Assembly: GCA_017942035.1 (NCBI GenBank)
Contig: JAGAVG010000045.1
Span: forward strand, 1-64,000
DNA: 64,000 bases
Direction: 5' to 3'
Source of the DNA: a bacterium
GTDB taxonomy: Bacteria; Cyanobacteriota; Vampirovibrionia; Gastranaerophilales; Gastranaerophilaceae
Made by a program: the position numbers and the translations under genes. Shown here one piece after another: positions 2-56,905 of the stretch (its first letter is position 1; every line of letters begins with the position of its first letter). A model generated the notes under the pieces. That model saw only the letters and a list, made by a program, of their open reading frames with translations, had not been told where the DNA came from and ran no database searches.

Positions 2-760
2 CATCCGTCCGCAATTTCGCTCTCACAAAGAGAGAGGGTAAAACATGCCTTTACCTTGGCGGAGGTCTTTTCATCACACTTTGCTGGTCATCGTAAAACC
101 GCCTTTACATTGGCGGAAGTTTTAATCACCCTCGGCATAATCGGCATTGTTGCGGCACTTACAATGCCAAATCTTATTGCTAATTATCAGAAAAAACAGA
201 CTGTTACTCAATTAAAAAAAGCGTATTCACAATTAGCACAAGCTTTAAAATTATCTGAAGTTACCAACGGAGAAGTTCAATATTGGAATCTTGATGCGCC
301 TTCTGATGAGTTTGCAAACAAATATGTTTTACCATATTTAAAGCATTCAAAAATTTTACCGGTTTCCGAGGTAAATTCAAATACAAAATATAGATTTTTA
401 GATGGTACTTATGCTTCTGCAGCATCTGGTTTTTATGGCGGTACAGCAATAGAAATTGCCGATGGAACAATTATAACTGTTGACAGTTGGACTCCGAGTG
501 ATAATAGTTTTAGGACTTTTTATATAGACATAAATGGTTATAAAAAGCCGAATGTTTTTGGAAAAGACATGTTTGTATTTTGGCTAAGATCAGGAGCAGA
601 CTTAAAACCATATTTTCACCAATATACAAGAGAGGAGCTGTTATTTGATACTAGTCTTCTTCAGCGGTGTACAAAAGATAAAACTTCGTTTGCTGGAATG
701 GGTTGTGCTACAGTGATTATGCTTGACGGCTGGGAGATTAAGGATGATTACCCTTGGTAA
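2..760 (+). CDS. Prepilin-like (pseudopilin) protein, 5' end cut by window edge
   Basis: Type IV prepilin/pseudopilin, expected to be processed by a prepilin peptidase and assembled by a type II secretion/pilus machine such as the one at 10.2-16.1 kb. The cleavage motif is A|FTLAEV followed by the hydrophobic helix LITLGIIGIVAALTMP; the C-terminus is DGWEIKDDYPW. The frame is open to the left edge, so the start is not visible. TTG at 56 is the first usable in-window start, and the ATG at 45 is out of frame. Upstream residues read LSQRERVKHAFTLAEV: the dispersed repeat at 20-38 translated in frame and joined to a first copy of the FTLAEV motif, so the motif occurs twice. The middle is unlike the other prepilins here. 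The family call is firm; the start and substrate are unknown. Confidence 0.85.
   Translation, partial: HPSAISLSQRERVKHAFTLAEVFSSHFAGHRKTAFTLAEVLITLGIIGIVAALTMPNLIANYQKKQTVTQLKKAYSQLAQALKLSEVTNGEVQYWNLDAPSDEFANKYVLPYLKHSKILPVSEVNSNTKYRFLDGTYASAASGFYGGTAIEIADGTIITVDSWTPSDNSFRTFYIDINGYKKPNVFGKDMFVFWLRSGADLKPYFHQYTREELLFDTSLLQRCTKDKTSFAGMGCATVIMLDGWEIKDDYPW
20..38. repeat. Short dispersed palindromic repeat (CTCTC...GAGAGGG)
   Basis: CTCTCACAAAGAGAGAGGG forms a small hairpin. An identical copy lies at 48581-48599, downstream of another prepilin. Here it is in frame with the prepilin and would be translated as LSQRERV. Confidence 0.7.
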
Positions 761-860
761 ATAAATAAGGACAATTTGCCAGCCGTTCTATTGAACGAAA
801 TTGACAAGATTTAACCAAAATCGGCAACACGTATGGCCGGACTGTGTCCGGTGGTAAATT
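725..860 (+). repeat. Prepilin 3' cassette: last codons plus conserved 3' flank
   Basis: The last prepilin codons (DGWEIKDDYPW, stop) and about 100 bp beyond closely match, in opposite orientation, the 3' end and flank of the prepilin at 56066-56905. Shared elements include a 3' arm ATTTGCCAGCCGT, inverted with respect to the codons for DGW, and a CCGGAC-N3-GTCCGG hairpin at 837-851. Here the arm pairing is imperfect (11 of 14) because the codons differ. Confidence 0.75.
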
Positions 861-905
861 AGGTTAGTATGATGCAATAAATTGCACTCTACACATTTAC
901 AAACT

Positions 906-923
906 GGTAGACTAAAGTCTACC
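906..923. repeat. Dispersed 18-bp palindrome (family A)
   Basis: GGTAGACTAAAGTCTACC. Exact copies occur at 9274, 23604, 25508, 32592, 32728, 47640 and 56820; degenerate copies at 23380 and 28695. Most are intergenic; two are translated inside prepilin leaders as SRVDFSLP. Confidence 0.85.
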
Positions 924-992
924 CTACTCTCTGTCCTTTTGTTTTCTGTTCCTCTATAAAAATATTAATTATTAAAAAATAATAAATTTTCC

Positions 993-45387: not shown

Positions 45388-46071
45388 CTAAATCTTTATC
45401 GGATAGTCGTCTGGAATTTTCCACCCATTTTGTTTAATCAATTCTGTACAATATGCCCTTGTATTTATTTCTTGAGCGCAACCGTACCATCCATGCAGCA
45501 AACCTTCTTTAGTCCCATCCCATCCGTGTTTATATGGCTCAACTCCATTGCCTATATGTTCATTCCCTAATGTTCCCTGAATAGTCGGAGCATAAAAAAA
45601 TAGAAAGAAATGTTTACCTGCATCTTTTTGACTAATATAACCATTTTCTGCCAGTTTATATTTGTTTGCATTCGGATAGAATAACCAGCCGCTACCTGAA
45701 ATCGCAACCATACTTCCATCATAAAAGTATAGTTGAACATTTCCGTCTTTATTTATCATTTTTACATCGGATTTTATGTATGGCAAAATATATTTTTTTA
45801 CCCAAGCTTCCGCTACAGCAACATTTGTTTCATTACCTTCATCATCTTTAATAAGACCATATCCGAGTTCATCCCAGTTTGTTCTATCTCCATAGTTAGA
45901 TTCTGCAAGTTGTATTGCCTGATTTATTATTGAATAGAATTTTGCAAGTCTGGTTTCAATAACTTTTTTTCTATATTCTGCCATAAGTGTAGGAATAGTC
46001 ATAGCAGCAACAATTCCAATTATACCAAGAGTTATGAGTACCTCTGCTAAAGTGAATGCTTTATTTTTCAT
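45388..46071 (-). CDS. Prepilin-like (pseudopilin) protein, repeat-free form
   Basis: A 227-aa prepilin with the short, ordinary leader MKNKA|FTLAEVLITLG, the cleavage motif with Glu5, and the hydrophobic helix IIGIVAAMTIPTLMAEY. The C-terminus (NGWKIPDDYPIKI) is a variant of the family's DGWxIKDDYPW. A strong GGAGG lies before the ATG. Unlike the other three prepilins, no dispersed repeat adjoins or enters the gene, so this looks like the ancestral form. It is divergent from an XRE regulator across an 18-bp palindrome. Confidence 0.9.
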   Translation of the reverse strand: MKNKAFTLAEVLITLGIIGIVAAMTIPTLMAEYRKKVIETRLAKFYSIINQAIQLAESNYGDRTNWDELGYGLIKDDEGNETNVAVAEAWVKKYILPYIKSDVKMINKDGNVQLYFYDGSMVAISGSGWLFYPNANKYKLAENGYISQKDAGKHFFLFFYAPTIQGTLGNEHIGNGVEPYKHGWDGTKEGLLHGWYGCAQEINTRAYCTELIKQNGWKIPDDYPIKI

Positions 46072-54532: not shown

Positions 54533-55834
54533 ATGTTGACAAAGAATTCATCAGTAAAAACAAGTTTTTCAGGTATTGATTTTAGTAAATACGCATCGAA
54601 AACTTCTGAATTTGTAAAAGAATTTGCTTCTAGAGCGAATAAAAAAGGATATTTCCTCAACTGGGTAGATTTGCCGAAAGAACAGCTGAAAAGAGTTGAC
54701 GAACTTTATTCAATGGTTGAAAATTTCAAAAAGCAGACTGGAAATTCTGTTTTAAGCGTTATGGGTATCGGCGGTTCAAAACATACCGTTGAACACATGC
54801 TTTCAATTAACGGTTTGAATATTAATTCTGATTCTGTAGTATTTTATTCAGATGTTGATTCTATAAGCTGGGAAAGATTTTTAACAAAATTAGGCCATGA
54901 TGTTACATCAGCAAATTTTATGATTGCGTCAAAATCAGGGTCAACTTTTGAAACAAAAGATGGATTTTTGAGAGTTCAAAACCTTCTTCTTGACGCTTAT
55001 ATGGCAAAAGGCCAGTCAAAAGAAGATGCTATGAAATCAGTTAGCAAACATTTTATTGCCGTAACTGATGCAAACAGCGAAAAAAGCGAACTTCGCAGAA
55101 CCTCTAACGAAAACGGATGGATTGGTGATTTGTTCATCCATGATGACGTTGGCGGAAGATTTTCAGCGTTTGACGATCACGCATTATTCACTCTTATCTG
55201 GGCAGGAATGAAAAAAGAAGATATGATTTCAATGCTTTCTTCTGCTCAAGAAATGTCTGAACAGTCATTATCAGATGATTTGGAAATTAATGATGCGTTG
55301 AAAGAAGGTATTTTCTGGGCTGATGCAAGCTTAAACGGCATTAAAGCATCTGTTCATCAATATATGGGTTCAATGTTTGAAAATACTGTTTACTGGCATG
55401 CACAAATGCAAAATGAATCAGTTAAAGACACGCTGAAACAGGTTGCGAAAGTTCCGGATGCAATGCACCACAGTGCAGAAGCTCACTTCAATCCAGCAAA
55501 CAAACTTGTTTTTGCATTAACTGTTCCGGTTGATAATGGTGTATGTTCTGAAAACGCTGAGGCTTATATCGGAGCATTGTCAAAATCTTATGAAATTACC
55601 GGCGCAACTTTTGTTGAAAGAGTTGAAACATCTTCACTTGGTCTAACTCCTCAAGCCGCAGGCGCTATGACAATGTTAAGAGCATTCGCAACTGTATATC
55701 AAGAAATTGTGACTGCTATTATGACAGGTAAAGAACTTCCGGAAGTTCTGGACAGTGTACTTCAACCGCACGTTGAATTCTACAAAAAGAATTTGAAAGG
55801 CGGAGTAGTCGTTCCGGGAAGAGTTTCTAAATAG
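54533..55834 (+). CDS. pgi: Glucose-6-phosphate isomerase
   Basis: A 433-aa phosphoglucose isomerase interconverting glucose-6-phosphate and fructose-6-phosphate. Both SIS subdomains are present: VMGIGGSKHTVEHML, SKSGSTFETKDGFL (phosphate-binding serines), DVGGRFSAFDDHALF, and the C-terminal HSAEAHFNPAN with the general region VERVETSSLGLTPQ. It is shorter than the E. coli enzyme but similar to compact bacterial forms. A strong terminator follows 20 bp after the stop. Confidence 0.9.
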   Translation: MLTKNSSVKTSFSGIDFSKYASKTSEFVKEFASRANKKGYFLNWVDLPKEQLKRVDELYSMVENFKKQTGNSVLSVMGIGGSKHTVEHMLSINGLNINSDSVVFYSDVDSISWERFLTKLGHDVTSANFMIASKSGSTFETKDGFLRVQNLLLDAYMAKGQSKEDAMKSVSKHFIAVTDANSEKSELRRTSNENGWIGDLFIHDDVGGRFSAFDDHALFTLIWAGMKKEDMISMLSSAQEMSEQSLSDDLEINDALKEGIFWADASLNGIKASVHQYMGSMFENTVYWHAQMQNESVKDTLKQVAKVPDAMHHSAEAHFNPANKLVFALTVPVDNGVCSENAEAYIGALSKSYEITGATFVERVETSSLGLTPQAAGAMTMLRAFATVYQEIVTAIMTGKELPEVLDSVLQPHVEFYKKNLKGGVVVPGRVSK

Positions 55835-55854: not shown

Positions 55855-55888
55855 AAAGGGCATGTAATAATTTACATGCCCTTTATTA
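55855..55888 (+). terminator. Rho-independent terminator of pgi
   Basis: AAAGGGCATGTAA (55855-55867) pairs with TTACATGCCCTTT (55872-55884), followed by ATTA. Confidence 0.85.
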
Positions 55889-55901
55889 TGCATTTTATCA
55901 A

Positions 55902-56101
55902 CTTTCGTTTAATGGGACGGCTGGCAAATTGTCCTTATTTACTTACCATAGATAATCTTTTTTTTATTTGCCACCGGACACAGTCCGGTCCTACGTGTTG
56001 CCGGTTTTGGTTTAATCTTGTCAATTTTCGTTCAATAGGACGGCTGGCAAATTGTCCTTATTTACTTACCATGGATAATCTTTTTTTATTTGCCAGCCGT
56101 C
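55902..56101 (-). repeat. Tandem copies of the prepilin 3' cassette
   Basis: Two copies of about 70 bp: 55902-55972 (remnant) and 56025-56101 (the real 3' end of the adjacent prepilin). They are separated by a CCGGAC-N3-GTCCGG hairpin segment shared with 800-860. In the real copy, GACGGCTGGCAAAT (56039-56052) and ATTTGCCAGCCGTC (56088-56101) are exact inverted repeats spanning the stop codon. The remnant lacks one arm and is frameshifted by an extra T. Confidence 0.8.
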
Positions 56102-56905
56102 TTTGATAATTAAGCGGGCACAATTATCTTTACCTCTTTGACAATTCCGCAATAAATCACTGCGCGAAATTTCCGGAGCTTCATCAGATGAAGCCCCATA
56201 AGGTTCAATCCTTTTACCAGCACCTATTATCGGTTGTCTTTGGTCATTACCTCTTCCGTATAAGAAAACAAATATATCTCTTCCTAACTTATTAGGACCA
56301 GCATCCGGGCCATCAATATCAATCAGAACTTTGCCGCCATCGCCTCCGCACCAGTAAAGGTAATTATAAGTTATGCAAGCCCCATTTTTCAATCTTACGG
56401 AATAACTATTTGCACATGTCCCTGGATATCCGGGATAAGATTTCCCGGGATTTTTACACATAATATCATCCGGTCCGGTTGCTTTTGGGTAACGTTCAGC
56501 AACAGCTACTTTATCGAAAGTCAAACCAAAACATCTTGTCATTCCATAATCGCCATACTCATAATTAGGGCAGGTCCAATGCTGCATTCCTAAACCATCA
56601 AAATCGTAACTTGCAGCACTCATACCTTGAATAATAATTGAATATGTTTGTTTCAACTTGTTAAGGGCAGATTGTTTCTGAAATCCCTCAATCAACGCCG
56701 GCAAAGTAAGAGCCGCAACAATGCCGATTATCCCGAGAGTGATTAAGACCTCTGCCAAGGTAAACGCGACCTTCGTCATTGCGAGCGAGTGAAATGAGCG
56801 TGACAATCCAGTGATTAATGGTAGACTAAAGTCTACCCTACTAATATTTTTTATCATAATATCCTGTTTCAAATTTCTTCCTTTCATAATTCTATATCTT
56901 AGCAT
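56066..56905 (-). CDS. Prepilin-like protein with repeat-derived extended leader
   Basis: A 279-aa pseudopilin. Translation from the ATG at 56905 is supported by AAAGGAG 5 nt upstream. The long leader reads in frame through the family A palindrome (SRVDFSLP) and a GGATTGTCACGCTC...GCAATGACG element (GLSRSFHSLAMTK). It then enters VA|FTLAEVLITLGIIGIVAALTLP, with a single cleavage motif. A short-leader alternative is the repeat's own ATG (MTKVAFTLAEV). The C-terminus DGWQIKKDYPW is encoded by one arm of an exact inverted repeat. The mature part is Gly/Cys-rich (CPNYEYGDYGMTRC). Confidence 0.87.
   Translation of the reverse strand: MLRYRIMKGRNLKQDIMIKNISRVDFSLPLITGLSRSFHSLAMTKVAFTLAEVLITLGIIGIVAALTLPALIEGFQKQSALNKLKQTYSIIIQGMSAASYDFDGLGMQHWTCPNYEYGDYGMTRCFGLTFDKVAVAERYPKATGPDDIMCKNPGKSYPGYPGTCANSYSVRLKNGACITYNYLYWCGGDGGKVLIDIDGPDAGPNKLGRDIFVFLYGRGNDQRQPIIGAGKRIEPYGASSDEAPEISRSDLLRNCQRGKDNCARLIIKDGWQIKKDYPW
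56764..56837 (-). repeat. Dispersed repeats embedded in frame in a prepilin leader
   Basis: The family A palindrome (56820-56837) is followed in the gene's direction by a GGATTGTCACGCTC...CTCGCAATGAC element (about 56776-56812). The order and reading frame match those in the prepilin at 47605. Confidence 0.75.

Follow-up and report, generated by a model that had tools for sequence, protein, structure and literature searches.

The window, that is, the whole 64,000 nt stretch of DNA that was analysed, carries two prepilin-like genes with a copy of a short repeated unit at their 3′ ends. The main features, with a slash marking the junction in motifs such as TGG/NAAAT, are:

56066–56779, minus strand: host prepilin-like gene (ORF), 237 aa, starting MTKVAFTLAEVLITLG and ending DGWQIKKDYPW, with its TAA at 56066–56068
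55971–56092, minus strand: cassette unit 1, 122 bp, comprising last codons, stop, tail, arm, variable middle and terminal hairpin, delimited from sequence
56088–56101, minus strand: left arm, within the gene, GACGGCTGGCAAAT, coding for DGWQI
56039–56052, minus strand: right arm, in the 3′ flank, ATTTGCCAGCCGTC on the gene strand, the exact complement of the gene arm
55974–55988, minus strand: terminal hairpin CCGGACTGTGTCCGG, followed by TGG/
55940–55970, minus strand: displaced prepilin end (CAAATAAAAAAAAGATTATCTATGGTAAG...), about 30 nt, its end not sharply defined
55892–55964, minus strand: second, 3′-truncated copy of tail and arm, 73 nt, 92% identical to 56015–56087, with the arm at 55916–55929
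56–760, plus strand: second unit-bearing prepilin-like gene, with N_methyl and DUF6613 over cut-off
734–854, plus strand: cassette unit after the prepilin ending at 760, 121 bp, delimited from sequence, with the arm at 774–787 and the hairpin at 837–851

The N-terminal methylation motif of the prepilin at 56066–56779 scores below threshold (N_methyl 14.7 bits of 21.2; TIGR02532 16.0 of 16.3). Its start at 56779 was chosen by the author; the mechanical ORF begins at 56905, a start that traverses a dispersed CATTGCGAGCG repeat (56760–56905), and 56779 is the likely start. The other two DGW gene ends of the window (near 45401 and 48496) have no unit. A search against Rfam gave no match over the gathering score in the window, and only a tRNA among 16 loci.

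The original prediction for this region was an exact 14 bp inverted repeat astride a prepilin stop codon, and it was confirmed: read on the forward strand, GACGGCTGGCAAAT (56039–56052) and ATTTGCCAGCCGTC (56088–56101) are exact complements separated by 35 nt, and the TAA of the minus-strand gene lies inside this loop. As also proposed, one arm (56088–56101) codes for DGWQI while the other (56039–56052) lies in the 3′ flank, and the same flank arm follows the prepilin ending at 760, where pairing with the gene is degraded to 11 of 14 positions (13 of 14 including G-U). No other perfect 14-mer pair with a spacer of 15–80 nt occurs in the whole window. Since dinucleotide shuffles give an expectation of 0.17 such pairs per window, the pair taken alone is just weakly significant. 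As RNA, the 63 nt spanning both arms fold with −23.1 kcal/mol (z = −6.0). Two things had been missed: the second flank arm at 55916–55929, within the truncated 73 nt copy, and the fact that the arrangement is one copy of a genome-wide repeat, the inverted repeat of 56039–56101 being the left part of a dispersed unit of 119–135 bp.

The unit is located at the Trp codon of the DGW/NGW motif near the prepilin 3′ end (TGG/NAAAT). In the direction of the gene its order is TGG/, last codons and stop, a short tail, a ATTTNCCAGCCGTC-like arm, a variable middle, CCGGACTGTGTCCGG and TGG/, the right part ending in a CCGGAC-GTCCGG-type hairpin. After the right TGG/ comes a second prepilin end, which is displaced and unused. 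The reading frame of the host gene continues into the unit and takes its last codons and stop from it. The unit has 8 bp terminal inverted repeats (ATTTNCCA...TGGNAAAT), as is expected of MITEs. Unit 1 is flanked by TGG/CAAAT and CCGGTGG/CAAAT, the exact place of its left boundary within the coding repeat being putative, and the best match of model R1 in the genome is at 55966–56098 (149 bits; unit 1 is itself part of the model). The TGG/NAAAT site marks the target, both junctions of the unit and every array junction; joining the two ends of a unit would therefore re-create it.

A blastn search with 55885–56110 gave 48 matches in the window's own genome (G000), about two dozen of them long, and 22 full units were aligned. 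Among 45 DGW gene ends of this genome (zero-mismatch pattern matches, classified by eye), 17 have a full unit, 4 a truncated unit with the arm, 1 a right-end remnant and 23 none; L015, which reads DNW rather than DGW and lies outside the pattern, also has a full unit. Tandem units occur at several loci (L021, L023, L027, L028). Several contigs end within arrays, so that array sizes are uncertain and unit numbers are lower bounds. No full units were seen in this genome away from prepilin ends or contig ends.

Insertion of the unit can be followed at an orthologous locus, defined as a prepilin directly upstream of an FAD-type gene, for which 15 genomes were searched. Six of these have the same NGW prepilin there, and the site is empty in four (G012, G231, G015 and G195), occupied by one unit in G163 and by two in G124. 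A different DGW prepilin without a unit is present in G144 and G016, and seven genomes have no DGW prepilin end upstream of the FAD-type gene. The displaced end and its flank (CCGTTTAAATTTTAAAA in G163, TTTTAATATTATTTAACC in G124) match the empty sites (G231, G195), whereas the present gene end of G163 and G124 differs from the empty-site end, indicating that the gene received a new 3′ end with the unit, which moved the native end downstream. Insertion at this locus is demonstrated by the occurrence of empty, one-unit and two-unit states at one orthologous position. Of the roles first offered for the repeat, recombination is best supported, by these empty and occupied sites, and is preferred to mRNA stability or termination. 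A change of the gene codon towards the arm by conversion (GGA in G012 and G231, GGC in G163 and G124) was also considered; it is weakened by the empty site of G195, which has GGC.

The units are far more alike than the DNA around them. The units of G016 have a mean identity of 94%, against 62% for 200 nt of upstream gene, 58% for downstream DNA and 61% for a shuffled control; those of the window's genome are 83% identical, with 62% upstream and 59% downstream. A comparison of seven gene-adjacent units of G016 gave identities of 93% for the tail, 96% for the middle and 45% for the flank that follows the displaced end; within the unit the arm varies most (87%). A long target-site duplication was rejected for this genome, as the tail is common to the loci and the flank after the displaced end is not. 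Unit coding parts and native gene ends are equally variable (91% in both), as would fit crossovers at any point of a homologous stretch. By eye, comparison with empty sites reveals no extra short duplication; the stretch that is repeated is the gene end, at least the tail of which is carried by the unit. A second target site at the stop codon, TGG/TAAAT (837–859 against L246; L013 against L245), was discarded, a deletion within the displaced end fitting equally well.

The unit is sparsely distributed among relatives. A covariance model of it found matches in 4 of 59, strong only in the window's own genome and in G016, which belongs to another genus. A duplicated-gene-end pattern matched 14 of 191 family genomes, of which 6 were judged by eye to have true units, 7 were chance-like and 1 (G106) has another kind of duplication. 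The right-junction pattern was found in 8 of 383 family genomes and 3 of 41 genera, with none for a reversed-pattern control; the right-end pattern is missing from the other 375. The carriers are G000, G016, G124, G144, G163, G195, G220 and G252; the two other genomes of the window's genus gave no right-junction match. In G163, a genome of about 10 contigs, the unit also lies mid-contig. Phages and plasmids gave no match to the unit. In IMG/VR the hairpin pattern gave none and the right-end pattern five hits, all without a unit, and viral carriers were rejected on this ground.

DGW/NGW-ended prepilin genes are themselves strongly expanded, with 28–64 pattern matches per genome in G000, G016 and genus g11 (at most one mismatch, unit right ends included), and just 1 and 6 gene-end matches in the two other genomes of the window's genus. 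The suggestion that the element shapes the conserved C-terminal DGW motif did not hold up: 23 of the 45 DGW gene ends are without the arm, and genomes such as G012 and G072 keep the motif without units (36 and 30 gene-end matches, at most one mismatch, and no right-end pattern). Absence of the downstream arm from most homologues had been put forward as a sign of chance local duplication. The arm is, literally, absent from most, but chance duplication is not implied, since a mobile insert would be present at some genes only; the palindromic element proposed as the alternative is borne out by the same layout in eight genomes and by covarying arms.

Relatives with a homologue of the neighbouring gene 54533–55834 are labelled Candidatus Gastranaerophilales or Melainabacteria, and at the 31 loci checked of 80 no DGW prepilin end was found within 2,500 nt behind these homologues. 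A contig labelled Muribaculaceae bacterium (L151) encodes a protein 85% identical to the product of this gene, and is probably from a mislabelled or contaminated bin.

Four traits persist across genera, namely the arm, a short motif rich in A, the terminal hairpin and the length of the whole unit, while the middle sequences are unrelated between G000, G016 and g11. The distance from the arm to the right end is 86–88 nt in 24 units and 83–90 nt in 18 units of g11, giving 83–90 nt for all 42. The A-rich motif, which has a GCA/CCA-type core as its end, precedes the hairpin and is recognisable by eye in most units. The right segment folds on itself in most copies, and an outer stem is predicted in most folds.

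The arm also follows the codons of its own gene. It had been proposed that changes in the two arms be compared across related genomes, and correlated changes were found at 48 loci: arm and gene match at 621 of 672 positions, compared with 589 on permutation of the arms within each genus and codon type (p ≤ 5e-5); 16 arms are perfect against 6.4 expected. The 48 loci were picked by hand, from 80 gene ends, as those that bear a unit and match the arm at 10 or more of 14 positions; the other 32, with no unit or no arm, were dropped. The picked loci are not fully independent, as L097 and L109 are orthologous and some copies from g11 and G016 are close relatives. Substituting a generic arm consensus for the best match to the own gene selected the same arms. 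G000 and g11 are each significant alone and G016 (8 loci) is not (p 0.12). The agreement holds for the 6 nt before TGG as well as for the codons after it, and extends to unusual codons such as GACAAC (L015), AACAAT (L215), GACGGATGGGAGTT (L108) and AACGGG (L114). Mismatches are of the gene-strand G-U type in 32 cases, of the opposite type in 6 and of other types in 13, a hint of bias in which related copies are non-independent and which C-to-T bias alone would also favour. None of the eight G016 arms is perfect, and all 12 of their mismatches are of the G-U type.

The carriers have neither Y1 transposase, reverse transcriptase nor a dedicated integrase in common, and the searches gave no mover. 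Y1 transposase (PF01797) has no match in G000 or G016 and is present in 20 of 59 relatives. Reverse transcriptase (PF00078) is missing from G000, G124, G163, G195 and G220 and present in G016, G144 and G252; with five of the eight carriers lacking it, a retroelement (TPRT, DGR or group II) is not supported. The only tyrosine recombinases (PF00589) of G195 and G220 are two that resemble the core Xer pair, and a pair of this kind was found in 20 of 20 genomes. None of the three enzymes is supported by the carrier genomes as the common mover.

Taken together, these results make it very probable that the unit is a mobile insert that supplies the gene end. It is probably a non-autonomous mobile tail cassette of prepilin genes that depends, in addition, on some dedicated recognition of its conserved parts. 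The unit would be released or copied into an intermediate, either a single strand or a circle, in which the joined ends re-form TGG/NAAAT, and it would then enter another prepilin gene at the same codon. The arm may pair over 14 nt with the gene or, by ATTTNCCA with TGGNAAAT, with the right end of its own unit; it could thereby serve as a recognition or folding part, like a folded attC site or a guide sequence. Insertion would be cheap for the host because the unit restores an equivalent protein end. That the unit moves by structure-guided strand exchange rather than by plain homologous recombination is a proposal we rate a little short of even. A more specific model, in which a minimal gene-tail cassette of 60–135 bp homes to last codons conserved in a multigene family and re-forms the frame that it interrupts, with a 14 nt guide pairing and co-evolving with the target codons, and in which the host moves the cassette (e.g., by Xer or by replication enzymes acting on a folded strand), appears rather unlikely. 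Against the mobile-cassette reading are the negative searches for a mover, the imperfect arms of G016, which imply that strict pairing is not required, and a family of 62 bp units without an arm, described below.

Ordinary recombination through similar gene ends is a serious rival. Without any dedicated mover, an insert between two copies of a gene end could spread by homologous recombination or by replication template switching over about 25–30 nt of similarity, and arrays could grow by slippage. Several findings agree with this account: displaced ends resemble present ones, unit coding parts and native ends are equally diverse, arrays such as L106 hold nearly identical units, targets are always prepilin ends, and no recombinase or reverse transcriptase is shared. 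It fails to predict, however, that the arm, motif, hairpin and length are conserved across genera with unrelated middles, or that arm and gene covary, and we consider it possible but clearly the less likely course.

The covariation itself could be a mutational by-product, in which template switching between imperfect inverted repeats homogenises the arms and their pairing has no function. Such switching is a known mechanism (PMC8604942) and would account for matched changes of several bases at once, e.g., GACAAC/GTTGTC and AACAAT/ATTGTT. Strong homogenisation in G016 is disfavoured because none of its eight arms is perfect, in copies that have spread recently, and yet the mismatches all keep gene-strand G-U pairing. 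The excess of this type (32, against 6 opposite and 13 other) also speaks against it, in copies that are non-independent and under a C-to-T bias that pushes in the same direction. A by-product of this kind is conceivable but doubtful.

It is less probable still that the unit is a functional mRNA element, with the stop-codon hairpin and 3′ structure stabilising or regulating prepilin transcripts, kept by selection and spread by gene conversion. The strong fold (−23.1 kcal/mol), the gene-strand G-U bias and the constrained length and hairpin would suit such a role. But 23 of 45 sibling genes in the genome do without the arm and 375 of 383 family genomes without the right-end pattern, pairing with the gene is open to a single unit of a tandem array, and the stretch is not terminator-like on the gene strand. 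A pattern scan for intrinsic terminators gave none on this strand and two weak sites, both on the opposite one, so the termination role first suggested for the repeat was not upheld.

The integron heptamers R′ and R″ are RYYYAAC and GTTRRRY, and the ends of the tail cassette, ATTTNCCA and TGGNAAAT, are not of this type. Its outer boxes are 83–90 nt apart, within the 57–142 nt of integron sites, and the single strand folds. In attC sites the conserved parts are complementary boxes, one at each end of a single strand that folds (PMC2727003). The tail cassette resembles attC in having complementary end boxes around a poorly conserved segment of limited length, an unpaired base in the fold (here one, in the arm), and head-to-tail arrays with the core restored at every junction (PMC2727003). 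Unlike integron cassettes, it has TGGNAAAT as its core and only the last codons of the host gene as cargo, its target is a dispersed multigene family, no integrase was found and no attI platform was noticed; G195 and G220 have no tyrosine recombinase beyond the core-Xer-like pair, as detected with PF00589. That it is a true gene cassette, its attC moved by an integron integrase, is thus very improbable, and membership of the integrons was regarded as refuted. A chance local duplication or assembly artefact, for which the 0.17 expected pairs per window and the several copies at contig ends could be cited, is negligible against the same layout in eight genomes and three genera, including the mid-contig copy of G163.

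Other known systems share some of these traits. Like MITEs, REPs and REPINs, the tail cassette is small, non-coding, dispersed, hairpin-forming and without a transposase inside; unlike them, it sits in frame inside genes of a single family, whose ends it replaces, and G000 and G016 have no Y1/RAYT transposase; a short target duplication is not apparent by eye. In IS200/IS605 elements, guide sequences pair with the cleavage site, and the tail cassette likewise has a terminal hairpin beside the junction and, internally, a segment that complements its target, but G000 and G016 lack a Y1 transposase and the 14 nt arm is far longer than such guides. Islands and prophages integrate at the 3′ ends of genes (tRNA genes, rlmH) and restore them. 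They resemble the tail cassette in their integration within a gene, the carried copy of the gene end, the displacement of the original and tandem insertion at one site, whereas the tail cassette is 100–1000 times smaller, has many targets per genome and no integrase gene. Judged by integron integrase, Y1 transposase and reverse transcriptase, it fits no known family and is best regarded as a variant of the non-autonomous palindromic mobile elements; no description of it was found in the open-licence PubMed Central literature.

Mobile elements usually occupy intergenic DNA or single sites, tRNA genes for example. In the present case the targets are dozens of members of one gene family, and the element hands each gene an equivalent tail, which explains the scrambled and duplicated prepilin 3′ ends of these poorly known gut bacteria. 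It is a small system in which a single locus can be empty or hold one unit or a tandem, and it raises the question of whether a folded strand with target-complementary arms can be moved by host enzymes alone.

Several minor observations concern the surroundings of prepilin genes. A REP-like palindrome, GTAGACTAAAGTCTAC, adjoins both unit-bearing prepilin genes of the window (905–929 and 56820–56843), and similar stretches are present at further prepilin loci (L032, L244). The 5′ end of the prepilin at 56–760 is seemingly duplicated (49–130), with two (A)FTLAEV-like starts, CTTTACCTTGGCGGAGGTC and CTTTACATTGGCGGAAGTT, within 70 nt; judging from this, prepilin 5′ ends may be exchanged too.

A second family of units, 62 bp long and without an inverted arm, is found in G016 at NGWKIP-type gene ends. 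Its plan is last codons and stop, an A-rich tail CAAAAATCTGCAAAGAGGAAAA and a hairpin CGGGC-GCCCG, followed by the displaced end. Seven of the 14 NGWKIP-type ends fetched have such a unit by eye, at L366, L257, L363, L367 and L368 and, truncated, at L362 and L364; one locus has three in tandem. As these units have no arm, a gene tail with a terminal hairpin is a plan that extends beyond the inverted repeat. In G106, a second DDYPW end lies about 108–110 nt after the prepilin at L103 and L110, preceded by a common AAAnCTAATT..GAGTGGA-like stretch, and this arrangement is perhaps a third kind of displaced 3′ end.
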